64,000 nucleotides of DNA from Balneola sp. EhC07 (GTDB taxonomy: Bacteria > Bacteroidota > Rhodothermia > Balneolales > Balneolaceae), in NCBI RefSeq assembly GCF_001650905.1, contig NZ_LXYG01000002.1:1-64000 (forward strand). Direction: 5' to 3'. The notes beneath the pieces are model-generated. The model was not told the DNA's origin. It searched no databases and saw only the letters and a program-made list of their open reading frames with translations. Positions 12,044 through 18,797 of this stretch are shown piece after piece. Position numbers and translations under genes: made by a program. Position 1 is the stretch's first letter. The number at the start of each line of letters is the position of its first letter.

Positions 12044-12358
12044 AATGGAAAGGTACAGCTTGAAAAGATGGGAATTAGTTTAAATCTGTTAAACCGGATG
12101 GGATTGTATTTAACCTGGAGTGGATTGAGTTTCGCAGTAGATATGTAATTCTCTCAATTCATTGAAGCAAAATTTTTGTGGGATTAATTGATCAGCAGGA
12201 TTATTTCTCAGCTAATTTTCAATCCTGCTCATCTTGTAAATCCTTTAAAATCTTGGTCAAAAGCGAATTGAGATAGAATTATAACAGGATTTATTAGGAG
12301 CAGGAGATCCTGCAAGCTTTTAACTACAAAGCTAAGGTTTTTTTTAAAGCAAAATCCA
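12044..12358. other. Intergenic region with first copy of an 87-bp direct repeat
   Basis: AT-rich, no gene. Its main content is the repeat at 12217-12304, which recurs at 13556-13641 on the other side of the propeller lipoprotein gene. Confidence 0.6.
12217..12304. repeat. Direct repeat, copy 1
   Basis: About 87 bp, roughly 88-90% identical to 13556-13641 by eye and in the same orientation. On the minus strand it reads as a short frame TKILKDLQDEQD followed by a stop, like the tail relics that occur between genes in Bacteroidota-type genomes. Confidence 0.75.
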
Positions 12359-13483
12359 TCATAAAGCAGATAGTTTATACTGAACCACAGTCTTTTCTCC
12401 ATTTTCATCGGTATGTATTGCCCACACGTTTTCGCCTTTAGCTTCCTTGAATTTCACATTAAAAGGTAACTTCACTGTTCCATAGAACTCTCCACTTTCA
12501 AGAAACACATCAAATGTGGGCTGCTCCCACCAGCTGTTTTCTAAACGTGGGTAAACATCACTCCTTTGCATGGCTTCAACATATCTCCAAACCCAAATTC
12601 TCCTGTCAGCATCTACCTTTATGCTTTTGAAATAAGGCTTTGTGTCAGGAATGTTAACTTGTGCCCCGAAATTTCGGTTAAATTTTTTCCATTGAGGTAT
12701 TTCTTCTTCCTTAACCTTTTCTTTCTGAATCTCTCTTTTATAGAGTACTTCTGAAGAATCATTATTAAACCGCTTAATAGAATATTCTCCATTATAACCG
12801 GTTACTAAAAATCCGGATGGATGAACAGCTGTGACATTTGTTTCGGTAAATGGATATTGATTACCTGAGTTAGAAAACACTACATAAGTTCTTTTATCTG
12901 CCCATGCTTCTCTTGGAATAAATAATGTATCTAAAACTTCTCCCGTCTGTGAGTATTCAGCCCAAACTGTTTCTTTTACTTCTCTTTTTTCCGGATCAAA
13001 TACTCCCTTTTTAAAGAAGAAGTTTTTATTGAAGCCTATTTCAAACACTTTTTCTGAATAATAACCAATAGCAAAAGCCTGGCTGGAGATATACTCTCCA
13101 TCTTGGGAATAAAAATTTACGCGACCATTTCTTTGATCCCATAAAACTATTCTTCCATCCGGCAGAGTTTCTAAACCACCTACCGTTATATATTCTCCGG
13201 GACCTCGTCCTTCTTTACCTATTGTTTTAACGAATGAACCTTCTGCATCAAACATGCTGATAGTTGGTAATTGAGCATCTCCCATAAATATACTTCCGTC
13301 TATACCTATAGTAAGATTGCTTGGGGACACAAAATAGAACTGATCTGCTTCTAATGAACTTTCGATCCTGAATTCTTCAACAACTTCAAATTCTCTTGAT
13401 GTGTTTGATTGTTCTTTGTTTTTATCGGAGGAGCAATGAACCAGAAATGGAATGAGGATCAGAAGTGAAAATATGCTTCTCAT
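12359..13483 (-). CDS. 6-bladed beta-propeller lipoprotein
   Basis: 374 residues: signal peptide with lipobox LVHC-S, then repeated strands with YWTD/NHL-like blades. The GREGRGPGEY-type motif (here GKEGRGPGEYITVGG), DGRIVLWDQRNGRVNFY and the late RRIWVWRYV blade are typical of the Bacteroidota '6-bladed beta-propeller' lipoprotein family, whose ligand is unknown. ATG start. It is bracketed by two copies of an 87-bp direct repeat, which suggests it was gained or moved as a unit. Confidence 0.8.
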   Translation of the reverse strand: MRSIFSLLILIPFLVHCSSDKNKEQSNTSREFEVVEEFRIESSLEADQFYFVSPSNLTIGIDGSIFMGDAQLPTISMFDAEGSFVKTIGKEGRGPGEYITVGGLETLPDGRIVLWDQRNGRVNFYSQDGEYISSQAFAIGYYSEKVFEIGFNKNFFFKKGVFDPEKREVKETVWAEYSQTGEVLDTLFIPREAWADKRTYVVFSNSGNQYPFTETNVTAVHPSGFLVTGYNGEYSIKRFNNDSSEVLYKREIQKEKVKEEEIPQWKKFNRNFGAQVNIPDTKPYFKSIKVDADRRIWVWRYVEAMQRSDVYPRLENSWWEQPTFDVFLESGEFYGTVKLPFNVKFKEAKGENVWAIHTDENGEKTVVQYKLSAL

Positions 13484-13810
13484 GTATTGTCAGTCAATTA
13501 AGTTTAATGTTAGATGAATAAGAATAAATTACTTATAAACTGCAAATGAGATTTATTTCAATCCTGCTCATCTTGTAAATCCTTTGCAATCTTGGTCAAA
13601 AGCGGATTGAGATAGAATTTTAACCTGACTATTAGGAGCAGGGTCCTTTCTACCGACAAGGCAGGATCCAATTGGGCATTCCACAGCTTGGCTAGGAATG
13701 AAATAAAACTAAGAGGATGTAATGGAAGTCAGGAGACTTCCTGAGCTGTTTCTTTTAAGTCACCGCTATCGCTAAAGCCTTAAAAGATCTTGGGATGCAG
13801 CTTGGGAAAG
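13484..13810. other. Intergenic region with second direct-repeat copy and hairpins
   Basis: Holds the repeat copy 13556-13641 and degenerate hairpins of the CATTCC...GGAATG type (13679-13701), related to those at 14455-14481 and 16168-16243. No gene seen. Confidence 0.55.
13556..13641. repeat. Direct repeat, copy 2
   Basis: Same orientation as copy 1 at 12217-12304; begins TTTCAATCCTGCTCATCTTG and ends ATTAGGAGCAGG. The two copies bracket the beta-propeller lipoprotein gene. Confidence 0.75.
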
Positions 13811-15404: not shown

Positions 15405-15896
15405 TTATATAATTTCTTGTAGCCTATCTTTTATTATCAATTTGAATTGAAAACCCTCATAAGAATCAAGCATCTTGGAAAATTTTTCAAATTCAATGTA
15501 TATACCATCTACAACTATTCCACCAGAAGTTATTAGCCCAACTAATTCATCGTTTCTGGGATAATTTTTTCCAGCTATCTTTTCTAAAAATCTAACAGAA
15601 AGATGCTTTTTTATTTTTCTTCTTAAATCTCCTAAGGCCAAGCCAACATTAGATTCATGGTATGCTTCAAATTGATATCCACCATTATCATGTTCAATTT
15701 TATCCTCCTTTGCGATTAATAAGTGACCACCAATTGGCGATTCATATAGATTGATCGTAAAGTTTCTTTTCTGGTCTGAATAATCTATTACAATTTCTTT
15801 CAATGGAAACTTAAGTTTATTTGAGTTCATATCATCTGGATTAAGAGTTGAAAAAACAAAGTTGTTAGAAGAAGAATAGTACAATCCAATAAACAT
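15405..15896 (-). CDS. Hypothetical cytoplasmic protein
   Basis: 163 residues, alpha/beta, no signal peptide or membrane helix. Segments LVGLITSGGIVVDGIYIEFEKF and GLALGDLRRKIKKHLSVRFL are well formed, but I cannot place them in a family. The ATG has one of the better ribosome-binding sites in this region (GTGGAG six bases upstream). Its upstream DNA (15908-15952) is a near-perfect copy of the DNA just downstream of bioA, so this gene probably followed bioA directly before the neighbouring insertion. Confidence 0.6.
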   Translation of the reverse strand: MFIGLYYSSSNNFVFSTLNPDDMNSNKLKFPLKEIVIDYSDQKRNFTINLYESPIGGHLLIAKEDKIEHDNGGYQFEAYHESNVGLALGDLRRKIKKHLSVRFLEKIAGKNYPRNDELVGLITSGGIVVDGIYIEFEKFSKMLDSYEGFQFKLIIKDRLQEII

Positions 15897-15907
15897 TTTA
15901 TCTCCAC

Positions 15908-15952
15908 TAAAATAAACAAAATCAGATAAGAAACACCTAATCCCTTAAACCA
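15908..15952. repeat. Duplicate of the DNA flanking the bioA stop
   Basis: 45 bp matching 17495-17539 with a single mismatch. 17532 is the end of bioA, so this copy includes the last codons' edge and the downstream spacer of bioA. Confidence 0.9.
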
Positions 15953-16106
15953 GTTTAAAGAGTTATCCATCTGTCGGGCTTTGCACGGCTGATGGAGTTT
16001 AGCTAAGAGGAAAGAAATTTAGCTTGGTAATGAAATCAGAACCATATTCAAGTCTCCATCACCCCGCTTTCAGCGAAATGATGGAATGAACAGGAGTTTA
16101 AAGAAC
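15953..16106. mobile_element. About 154-bp MITE-like insertion inside the duplicated bioA tail
   Basis: Compared with bioA and its spacer, the duplicated copy is interrupted by 154 bp. The seven bases TAAACCA occur on both sides (15946-15952 and 16107-16113), as expected of a target-site duplication. Inside is a strong hairpin (CCATCA...TGATGG near 16052-16083). It has no coding capacity. Confidence 0.55.
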
Positions 16107-16138
16107 TAAACCAACTCTCCGATCTGCCCATAGATCAA
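16106..16138 (-). pseudogene. Relic of the bioA 3' end
   Basis: Ten codons plus stop reading LIYGQIGELV, against MIYGKIGELV at the end of the intact bioA. Nucleotide identity is about 28 of 33. It has its own TAG stop and no upstream coding sequence. Confidence 0.8.
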
Positions 16139-16167
16139 GAGTATTCGGAGCAGGAGCTCCAATCGAG

Positions 16168-16243
16168 CATTCCGCAGCAGAGCTACGGAACGAGGTTAAG
16201 CTTCAATTGGTCATTCCGCAGCAGAGCTACGGAACGAGGTTAA
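16168..16243. repeat. Tandem pair of 32-bp hairpin repeats
   Basis: Two identical 32-bp units (16168-16199 and 16212-16243) that each fold (CATTCCG...CGGAACG with an inner AGC/GCT stem), with a period of 44 bp. Degenerate single copies lie near 13679, 14457 and 15286. They abut the truncated attC-like site. Confidence 0.85.
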
Positions 16244-16278
16244 ACGCGTTCGAGTCCGACTTAAAACGCTTGTTATGC
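16244..16278 (-). repeat. Truncated attC-like site of cassette 2
   Basis: Carries the inverse core GCATAAC, then AAGCGTTTTAAGTCGGACTC as in the complete site; 32 bases are identical to the corresponding half of the 16983-17073 site. The other half (L'/R' side) is missing and hairpin repeats follow. Confidence 0.65.
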
Positions 16279-16280
16279 AG

Positions 16281-16967
16281 TTAAAGATTTGAACCAGATG
16301 ATAGATACTTTTCATAATTCATTCTTTGAGATAAATATTCTTTCAGAAAAGATTTAATCTCGGAATAGTTAGGTTCAAAGCTTGAAAAAACCAGCTTCTT
16401 TTTACCTTCAAAGTAGAGATTAATAAGGTCAACATAATCTTTCTTTGCTTCTTTTACTTCAATAGATCTCAACTCATTCAAAAGAAACACTTTGTTCTTT
16501 TTACCTCTTATTTCTTCAATAGATGAGTTTTTGAAAGTTATGCTAATGGTTTTTTCAGACCCTCGATATAAGTAAGAAAAGACGATACTTAAAAGAATTA
16601 GAATTGGTAGACCAACTAATAGTTCTTCTTTAAAAGCAATGTCACTCATTCTAATTCGGATCAGAACTACAATAATTAATGGAATAACTGTTGCTATGTA
16701 TACTTTTAAAAAGTTAGAGTTGAACTCTTTACTTCCTGTGCTATAAGAAAAAGAAACCTCGTTATAGTTATCTATTTTCTTAGGAATCTGATCTTTATCA
16801 AGTAATCGATATCCCGAATTAACTTGTATCAATTCAATGTTTTCAGGTTTCTTTTTTTCTAGTTCAGATATGAGCTGAGATACATTCTCTGGATATAGTT
16901 TTTGATTGATGTTGCGAAAACTATCAACTAACTGATCATATGAATAGCTACTAAAATCTGGCATCAT
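16281..16967 (-). CDS. Cassette-borne two-helix membrane protein
   Basis: 228 residues. An N-terminal soluble helical segment (YDQLVDSFRNINQKLYPENVSQLISELEKK), two membrane helices (about 88-107 and 117-136), then a PH-like beta domain (KTISITFKNSSIEEIRGKKNKVFLLNELRSIEV). Unknown function; layouts like this are common among integron cassette proteins. The ATG lies 15 bases after the cassette's core site and the TAA is directly joined to the inverse core, as is typical of cassettes. Confidence 0.65.
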   Translation of the reverse strand: MMPDFSSYSYDQLVDSFRNINQKLYPENVSQLISELEKKKPENIELIQVNSGYRLLDKDQIPKKIDNYNEVSFSYSTGSKEFNSNFLKVYIATVIPLIIVVLIRIRMSDIAFKEELLVGLPILILLSIVFSYLYRGSEKTISITFKNSSIEEIRGKKNKVFLLNELRSIEVKEAKKDYVDLINLYFEGKKKLVFSSFEPNYSEIKSFLKEYLSQRMNYEKYLSSGSNL

Positions 16968-16982
16968 TTAGTTTTCTTAACT

Positions 16983-17073
16983 GCATAACGACCCTGCGTT
17001 TAAGCGGCGAGTCTGGTTTTAATTATTAAAGTTCCGAACCGCGTTCGAGTCCGACTTAAAACGCTTGTTATAC
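16983..17073 (-). repeat. Complete attC-like recombination site
   Basis: Minus strand: GTATAAC...GTTATGC ends (6 of 7 paired). Inside them AAGCGTTTTAAG pairs with CTTAAACGC leaving one unpaired T, then TCGGACTC with GACTCGCCG. The centre folds separately (TTTAAT/ATTAAA). Order, size (91 bp) and the extrahelical base match attC architecture. The ends also resemble the known Vibrio repeat (TATAACAA-x-CG...AAG and CTTA...GGGCGTTAT), as I recall its consensus. Confidence 0.65.
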
Positions 17074-17445
17074 TTAAAACCTGATGAATTCCTGATAAGC
17101 TATAGAGGCTCCTAAGTAGCTTAAAATTATTGATAAAGCATTACCAATTAGAAACAAGTTGTATGTTCCTCTTTGGTTTTCTTTTGTCCACCTGCCCCAA
17201 TGTGTTGCCACTTTCAGGACTAGCCAAATACCAATAATTGTGGGCTCATAAACAAGAAAAGCTGTTGTATACAAAACACGTTCTACTACTCCCATTGGTA
17301 ACGTTAAAATTCCAGGCTCTTTCTTTGGAATTTGAAGCTTTTTTGCCAAATAATTCCAGCCAAGCTTATCTATTAAAATCCAGAGAATAATTGTAGAAAT
17401 AATTGTTGAAAATATATATCCAAGAACTATGCTTTGTATATCCAT
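17074..17445 (-). CDS. Cassette-borne multi-helix membrane protein
   Basis: 123 residues with about four membrane helices (SIVLGYIFSTIISTIILWILI, VERVLYTTAFLVY, TIIGIWLVLKVAT, NLFLIGNALSIILSYLGA). The central loop ATHWGRWTKENQRGTYN is well formed. No family or substrate recognised. Starts at ATG 17445; a TTG three codons earlier is possible. The gene sits between the core site GTTATAC and its complementary inverse core. Confidence 0.65.
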   Translation of the reverse strand: MDIQSIVLGYIFSTIISTIILWILIDKLGWNYLAKKLQIPKKEPGILTLPMGVVERVLYTTAFLVYEPTIIGIWLVLKVATHWGRWTKENQRGTYNLFLIGNALSIILSYLGASIAYQEFIRF

Positions 17446-17531
17446 ATTCTGCAATTTAAGTATAACATATTACTGATGAACATTTCACCCTGAGTAAAAT
17501 AAACAAAATCAGCTAAGAAACACCTAATCCC

Positions 17532-18797
17532 TTAAACCAACTCCCCAATCTTCCCATAGATCATATCCAGCTCAGCTTCTGTCACACAGTACGGAGGCAT
17601 CAGGTACAACACATTACCAAGCGGACGAAGTAACAATCCATGATCCACACATTCTTTTTTGATGCGTGCTGCTACCGAGTTCAGATATCCGCCCTCTTCT
17701 TCGTTGATGATATCCATCGCTGCTATGGTTCCTTTTACTCTGAATTTTTCGAGTCTTGGATGATCGGCAAGCTTTTCCAGATGTTTGGTATGAATGGCTT
17801 CCATTCCTTTGAATACCGGAGCATTTTCTCTCAACAATTTCCAGGATGCAATTCCTGCAGCACAGCCCAATGGATTTCCGGTATAACTGTGTCCATGCCA
17901 AAAAGTTTTGATCGGATCAGAAGAATTGAAGCTTTCGTAGATCTCGTCACTACTCACCGTAACCGAAAGCGGCATGAATCCGCCCGTAATTCCTTTACTC
18001 AGGCAAATGATGTCCGGCTGCACTTGCGCTCGTTTACACGCAAAATAGTCGCCCGTGCGACCAAATCCCGTCATTACTTCATCAAACAACAGCAAAGTAT
18101 CAAACTGTCGGTTGCTCCAATGTACTTTTTGGAGAAACTCTTCGGAACACATGCGCATCCCTCCTGCGCCCTGAACCAGTGGTTCCATCAAAATACCGGC
18201 GTATTTCTCCGGATACTTGGTTAGCAAACTTTCCAATTCTTCAATAACGGCATCTTCTTTATTCGCCCGATTCTCATCTCCGATCCATGTTTCCGGATAC
18301 GGGATCACTTCCATATCAAACATCCAGTCTTTGAATACATCGGTGAAAATAGAACGCTCCCCGGCCGACATCGCTCCCAACGTATCTCCGTGATAAGCTC
18401 CTTCAAAGCAGATAAAAGTTTTTCGCTCCTGACCAATATTCTTCCAGTACTGATAAGCGATCTTCATTCCAACTTCCACAGCGGTTGATCCATTATCAGA
18501 AAAGAATACTTTGTTCAGATTCTTAGGCAATTCCTGAGTGATCAACTCCGCCAACTGCTCTGCAGGGTCGTGCGTAAATCCGGCAAAGATAACATGTTCA
18601 AGCGTTTTTGCCTGCTCATAAATGGCTTTGGCAATATCAGGATGGGAATGTCCATGCATATTTACCCACCAGCTGGAAATACAATCCAGAACTTCCCTTC
18701 CGTCTTCTAATGTGAGATAAGCTCCCTTTCCGCTCTTTACCTTAAGAGGCTCAGGTGCATCTTTGATGATCGTAAATGGATGCCAAACGTTGTTCAT
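17532..18797 (-). CDS. bioA: Adenosylmethionine-8-amino-7-oxononanoate aminotransferase
   Basis: Class-III PLP aminotransferase making 7,8-diaminopelargonate from KAPA with SAM as amino donor (biotin pathway). 421 residues, normal length. SSWWVNMHGHSHP near the N-terminus is a BioA signature. LLLFDEVMTGFGRTG holds the PLP-ring aspartate, CLSKGITGGFMPL the PLP lysine, and FWHGHSYTGNPLGCAAG follows. ATG start. It is last in the trp-bio run, and its 3' end is duplicated at 16106-16138. Confidence 0.97.
   Translation of the reverse strand: MNNVWHPFTIIKDAPEPLKVKSGKGAYLTLEDGREVLDCISSWWVNMHGHSHPDIAKAIYEQAKTLEHVIFAGFTHDPAEQLAELITQELPKNLNKVFFSDNGSTAVEVGMKIAYQYWKNIGQERKTFICFEGAYHGDTLGAMSAGERSIFTDVFKDWMFDMEVIPYPETWIGDENRANKEDAVIEELESLLTKYPEKYAGILMEPLVQGAGGMRMCSEEFLQKVHWSNRQFDTLLLFDEVMTGFGRTGDYFACKRAQVQPDIICLSKGITGGFMPLSVTVSSDEIYESFNSSDPIKTFWHGHSYTGNPLGCAAGIASWKLLRENAPVFKGMEAIHTKHLEKLADHPRLEKFRVKGTIAAMDIINEEEGGYLNSVAARIKKECVDHGLLLRPLGNVLYLMPPYCVTEAELDMIYGKIGELV

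Follow-up and report, generated by a model that had tools for sequence, protein, structure and literature searches.

Just after bioA, which we take from its sequence and its biotin-gene neighbourhood to encode adenosylmethionine-8-amino-7-oxononanoate aminotransferase, Balneola sp. EhC07 (G000) carries two genes that a sequence-only reading of the window (the whole stretch of 64,000 nucleotides analysed here) had taken for integron cassettes without an integrase. Are these genes cassettes, and how did they come to form a satellite cluster at this spot, away from the resident cassette array? Our conclusion is that they are genuine cassettes of an integron system that is widespread in Balneolaceae, arranged head to tail, that they were very probably inserted by IntI at a non-integron site after bioA, and that intI was lost later.

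Read along the minus strand, the locus comprises the junction TAATATG^TTATAC, gene A, an attC site (GTATAAC...GTTATGC), gene B, a truncated attC site (GCATAACAAGCGTTTTAAGTCGGACTCGAACGCG), two copies of a 44-nt repeat and native post-bioA DNA (Table 1). As had been claimed, each open reading frame is bracketed by 7-bp cores whose complementarity continues into the flanks, to a total of 12 nt for cassette A (GTTATACTTAAA, 17067-17078, against TTTAAGTATAAC, 17455-17466) and 13 nt for cassette B (GTTATGCAGTTAA, 16272-16284, against TTAACTGCATAAC, 16977-16989). The stop codon was said to abut the inverse core in both genes; this holds for gene A, but the stop codon of gene B lies 2 nt off. The 91-bp site between the genes and its truncated second copy are both present, and have 34 of 35 bases in common (16242-16276 and 17037-17071) rather than the 32 counted earlier. 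A scan for attC ends picked up the truncated site as a left half only.

Table 1. Features of the cassette cluster and its surroundings (window coordinates)
Feature	Position	Strand	Remarks
Native post-bioA DNA, long allele, whose start repeats the final ~31 bp of bioA	15888..16137	-	
44-nt low-copy repeat, two tandem copies, TTCCGTAGCTCTGCTGCGGAA core	16155..16242	-	Abuts truncated attC; four exact copies genome-wide
Truncated attC, 37 nt, R''/L'' half only	16242..16278	-	Cut at ...AACGCG; 97% identity to complete attC over 35 nt
Cassette gene B	16281..16967	-	ORF, 228 aa, two hydrophobic segments
Complete attC	16983..17073	-	R'' GTATAAC 17067-17073, R' GTTATGC 16983-16989; congener-only covariance model R1
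Cassette gene A	17074..17454	-	ORF, 126 aa, TTG start; in-frame ATG at 17442
Entry core GTTATAC, left end of first cassette	17460..17466	-	Junction TAATATG^TTATAC; 12-nt pairing with R'' of first cassette
First bioA tail/post-bioA segment, short allele as in G002	17476..17539	-	Leads into junction
bioA, host gene by the docking site	17532..18797	-	ORF; one orthologue in each of the 8 genomes of the genus

In order to judge the 91-bp site we used a covariance model built from 25 attC sites of congeneric genomes only. This model calls the site a complete attC on the minus strand, with a score of 93.3 bits and an E-value of 1.9e-25 for the 64-kb window, a match far beyond chance given that the model contains no sequence of G000. 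It scores the complete site alone and not the truncated one, with no second match in the window up to E 10; in Rfam, the region has no match. The site has the imperfect palindrome R''-L''...L'-R' with AAC/GTT boxes and extrahelical bases that characterises attC, though the single extrahelical base described earlier must be corrected, since the L stem has two extrahelical positions. At the first of these the bottom strand has A where most of the family has G, and the site may for that reason be a weak substrate. Folding gave a divided answer to the suggestion that the site folds like attC: the integrated site folds no better than shuffled sequences (z -0.09 and -0.71), which is expected given that in an array the outer boxes come from different cassettes, but the excised form folds strongly. 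With the ends of cassette A joined as in the excised circle, the 101-nt bottom strand forms one hairpin of -17.7 kcal/mol (z -3.10; matched by 0 of 200 shuffles).

The same logic predicts which ends should pair. Neighbouring R'' and R' boxes in an array come from two successive cassettes, so that the only R' expected to match a given R'' is the one that opens its own cassette. In the attC alignment, the variable pairs formed by neighbouring outer boxes indeed match no better than shuffles, while own-cassette ends with 7/7 cores match over about 4 further nucleotides (mean 4.14; shuffled partners, 0.74; 58 counts from both strands of 29 cassettes). The 12- and 13-nt complementarity between R'' and own R' in the window cassettes is thus an instance of something general in the genus. 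We considered whether such long complementarity is a new trait and rejected this, as extension past the 7-nt boxes has already been described and several integrons of other phyla show it too. The attC sites of Bouvier 2009 (PMC2727003) likewise have R and L boxes, extrahelical bases and R-box pairing that exceeds 7 nt, reaching 9-11 nt; the differences lie in the 12 and 13 nt found here and in the bottom-strand extrahelical A in place of the usual G. Cassette identity is therefore confirmed, on better evidence than the sequence-only reading had.

Each gene is flanked by inverted ends complementary over 12-13 nt, which would also suit a MITE or another inverted-repeat element unrelated to integrons. 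We regard this as so improbable that it can be set aside: the complete attC architecture and the covariance score speak against it, and it is refuted by the congeners, in which the same attC family forms long arrays adjacent to intI and attI.

How widespread is this family? The window site finds siblings by BLAST in G000 and in congeners, and the congener-trained model detects 25 attC sites in G000 and 11-26 in each of six of the seven congeners. Above the curated cut-off of TIGR02249, intI is present in 29 of 59 relatives, again including six of the seven congeners; the remaining congener, G005, has neither intI over this cut-off nor an attC detected by the model, and has either wholly lost the system or never had it. 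The lineage had been described as one where such elements are rarely reported. With intI in about half of the 59 relatives and in six of seven congeners, integrons are in fact common in it, but they are little described: our literature search found no open paper devoted to integrons of Balneolota, and Bacteroidetes yielded few integrons in the IntegronFinder 2.0 survey, among them a complete integron of Salinibacter ruber (PMC9024848).

The integrase gene, noted earlier as missing beside the two cassettes, is absent from the window and from the rest of the G000 genome as well. No TIGR02249 match exceeds the cut-off in the genome, which is 98.6% complete, and the IntI protein of congener G007 matches only other tyrosine recombinases there. 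In G002 and G007, where its location is precise, intI lies near metK together with attI and an array. At the corresponding place in G000 (C17:58-69 kb) the attI core GGATAATATTATG^TTAGGT and the cassettes are kept and intI is gone; metK and a REP-type transposase-like gene are also retained. Given that this locus keeps attI and array, and that G007 IntI finds only other recombinases, the absence of intI in G000 is a secondary loss by clean deletion. The REP-associated transposase-like gene lies between metK and the resident intI/attI region in both G000 and G007 (L080:3469-3849 and L022:11170-11739).

No complete integron, with intI adjacent to attI and an array, is present at the window locus. 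The label CALIN, given to it earlier, fits in so far as attC-bounded genes lie far from intI, but the cluster has one complete and one truncated attC, and so falls under the default threshold of IntegronFinder 2.0 of at least two attC sites without neighbouring intI (PMC9024848). CALINs have been proposed to be degraded parts of integrons (Cury 2016; PMC9024848).

By its sequence, the entry junction resembles an attI-like or attG site, and TAATATG^TTATAC fits the entry of a cassette at the G^TT of a chromosomal non-att site. The core is similar to the attI core of the genus (TAATATTATG^TT or TAATATG^TT). It is important to note that this similarity is suggestive only, as the window has a single copy of the entry core TAATATGTTA and 25 of 100 shuffles contain it too, and so short and AT-rich a motif proves little by itself. 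These data bear on a further explanation, in which the satellite is the remnant of a second complete integron beside bioA that lost its own intI. An attI-like core, and the cassettes that several congeners have at this place, would be consistent with such an origin. However, the likeness to attI regions is confined to the core, with post-bioA sequence upstream of it, and intI is found beside metK in the two congeners in which it was placed; we thus consider a former second integron improbable. The covariance call, the attI-like junction after bioA and the loss of intI with attI kept instead support the integration of cassettes at a secondary site, as suggested by the sequence-only reading.

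Comparison of the region after bioA across the genus reveals cassette-like presence and absence. Genes A and B are missing from all congeners, apart from a match of 41 aa at the N-terminus of gene B in G003, and other cassettes occupy the same site. G001 has TAATATG^TTAGCT at the junction, followed by a different cassette with a good attC (93.9 bits) and by a second cassette, which pairs at its end with the R' of the preceding attC before decaying. In G003, bioA is followed by a small membrane-protein gene, a decayed attC (E 3e-8) and another gene. The same small gene is present in G002 and G007, where no attC accompanies it. A 64% identical relative in the resident array of G002 identifies it as a cassette gene; G002 and G007, candidates for empty sites, are ruled out as such, as both carry this old cassette gene. 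In G004 a further gene follows TTGTG^TTATG, with no recognisable attC, and no truly empty orthologous site was found among the close relatives compared. This varied content amounts to at least three different cassette sets at one spot in five species, which gives the spot the look of an old docking site where cassettes turn over. A tentative extension, which we would sooner doubt than assert, is that the post-bioA region may serve the Balneolaceae integron as a second docking site of long standing, mimicking the attI core away from intI and repeatedly loaded and swapped over the divergence of the genus, so that one integrase would serve several fixed entry points.

A second satellite array occurs in two species (G000, C18 at ~154 kb, L079; G002, C15 at ~43 kb, L086). 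Its left flank (GGATAATATYATG^TT / ATCCTTGTTTGGATAATATYATG^TT) is common to both and close to the attI core.

Insertion of cassettes into genomes at attG sites has been reported (Loot et al. 2024, Nat Microbiol, as cited in PMC11023631, PMC12901181 and PMC12444791), and in our locus, too, the cassettes occupy a chromosomal site distinct both from attC and from the resident attI. In contrast to the attG sites of E. coli, which PMC12444791 reports as broadly spread, the bioA site resembles the genus attI core and appears to be reused across species. In Xanthomonas, intI has been lost repeatedly and CALINs lie at conserved positions in several species (PMC12444791). The ancestral integron by a housekeeping gene, the repeated intI loss and the conserved CALIN places are shared features; the differences are the phylum, a resident integron by metK with a satellite by bioA, and the full deletion of intI here. 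As attG insertion, CALINs, loss of intI and conserved CALIN positions have all been described, the window cassettes are a clear and well-supported new case of a known phenomenon, and the interesting part is the putative reuse of one attI-like site beside bioA. For Balneolota, a group hardly represented in the integron papers searched, the case shows that most members of one genus possess integrons, with attC families that are homogeneous and with satellite clusters. Between them these genomes form a natural series in which intact, satellite and integrase-less states are all represented. If a fixed satellite site is truly reused by different cassettes, preferred secondary entry points could be tested against random attG sites.

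For insertion by IntI followed by loss of intI, our preferred explanation, we infer the following order of events. An IntI of this lineage would have folded the bottom-strand attC of a circular cassette and recombined it into the double-stranded, attI-like TAATATG^TT, after which more cassettes would have been added or exchanged at the same place. Later deletion of intI at the resident integron near metK would have frozen the satellite and the other arrays. The last attC would have been truncated by a rearrangement involving the short repeat and duplication of the bioA tail. Counting against this explanation are the loss of half of the second attC, which leaves cassette B without a complete site, the extrahelical A of a possibly weak substrate, the low weight of the entry motif by itself and the lack of a truly empty site among the close relatives compared.

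The right end of the cluster bears on this missing half. The 3' end of bioA and the next ~60 bp occur twice (15888-16137 and 17476-17563), in two allele types that surround the cluster: copy 1 resembles the short allele seen in G002 and copy 2 the long allele present in G001, G004 and G007, with 89-92% identity over 15888..16137 to the DNA directly 3' of bioA in these three. Congeners differ by a hairpin-rich insert of ~150 bp directly after the bioA stop codon. Given that copy 2 follows the truncated attC and the repeat, the rearrangement would have severed the last attC once the cassettes had been inserted, possibly through recombination with the allele of a relative. The two allele types would also suit the arrival of the whole cluster ready-made, by homologous recombination with the bioA region of a relative that supplied the short allele and the cassettes, the duplicated tail being the scar. 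To this we give a chance not far short of even. It would, however, only shift the IntI event to a donor of the same genus, leaving the cassette structure and the attI-like junction unchanged.

As for what the cassettes encode, searches with gene A and gene B assigned neither to a family (for gene A, Pfam, NCBIfam and PADLOC), and in 129 genomes of the order gene A has weak matches only and gene B no close relative. Matches to SMC_ScpB and DUF1286 were weak and below cut-off, and we do not believe them. The earlier description of both as membrane proteins of no known family is upheld: both are ORFans, and their hydrophobic segments suggest membrane proteins.

Two further observations concern the neighbourhood. 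The gene after the second bioA tail (15405-15896) has DUF7686 and DUF7713 domains, and starts where the cassette or other genes of the congeners begin. A direct repeat of ~88 nt (12217-12304 and 13556-13642, 91% identity) flanks a beta-propeller-like gene (12359-13483), and related copies of this repeat are present at corresponding places in G007, G004 and G001.
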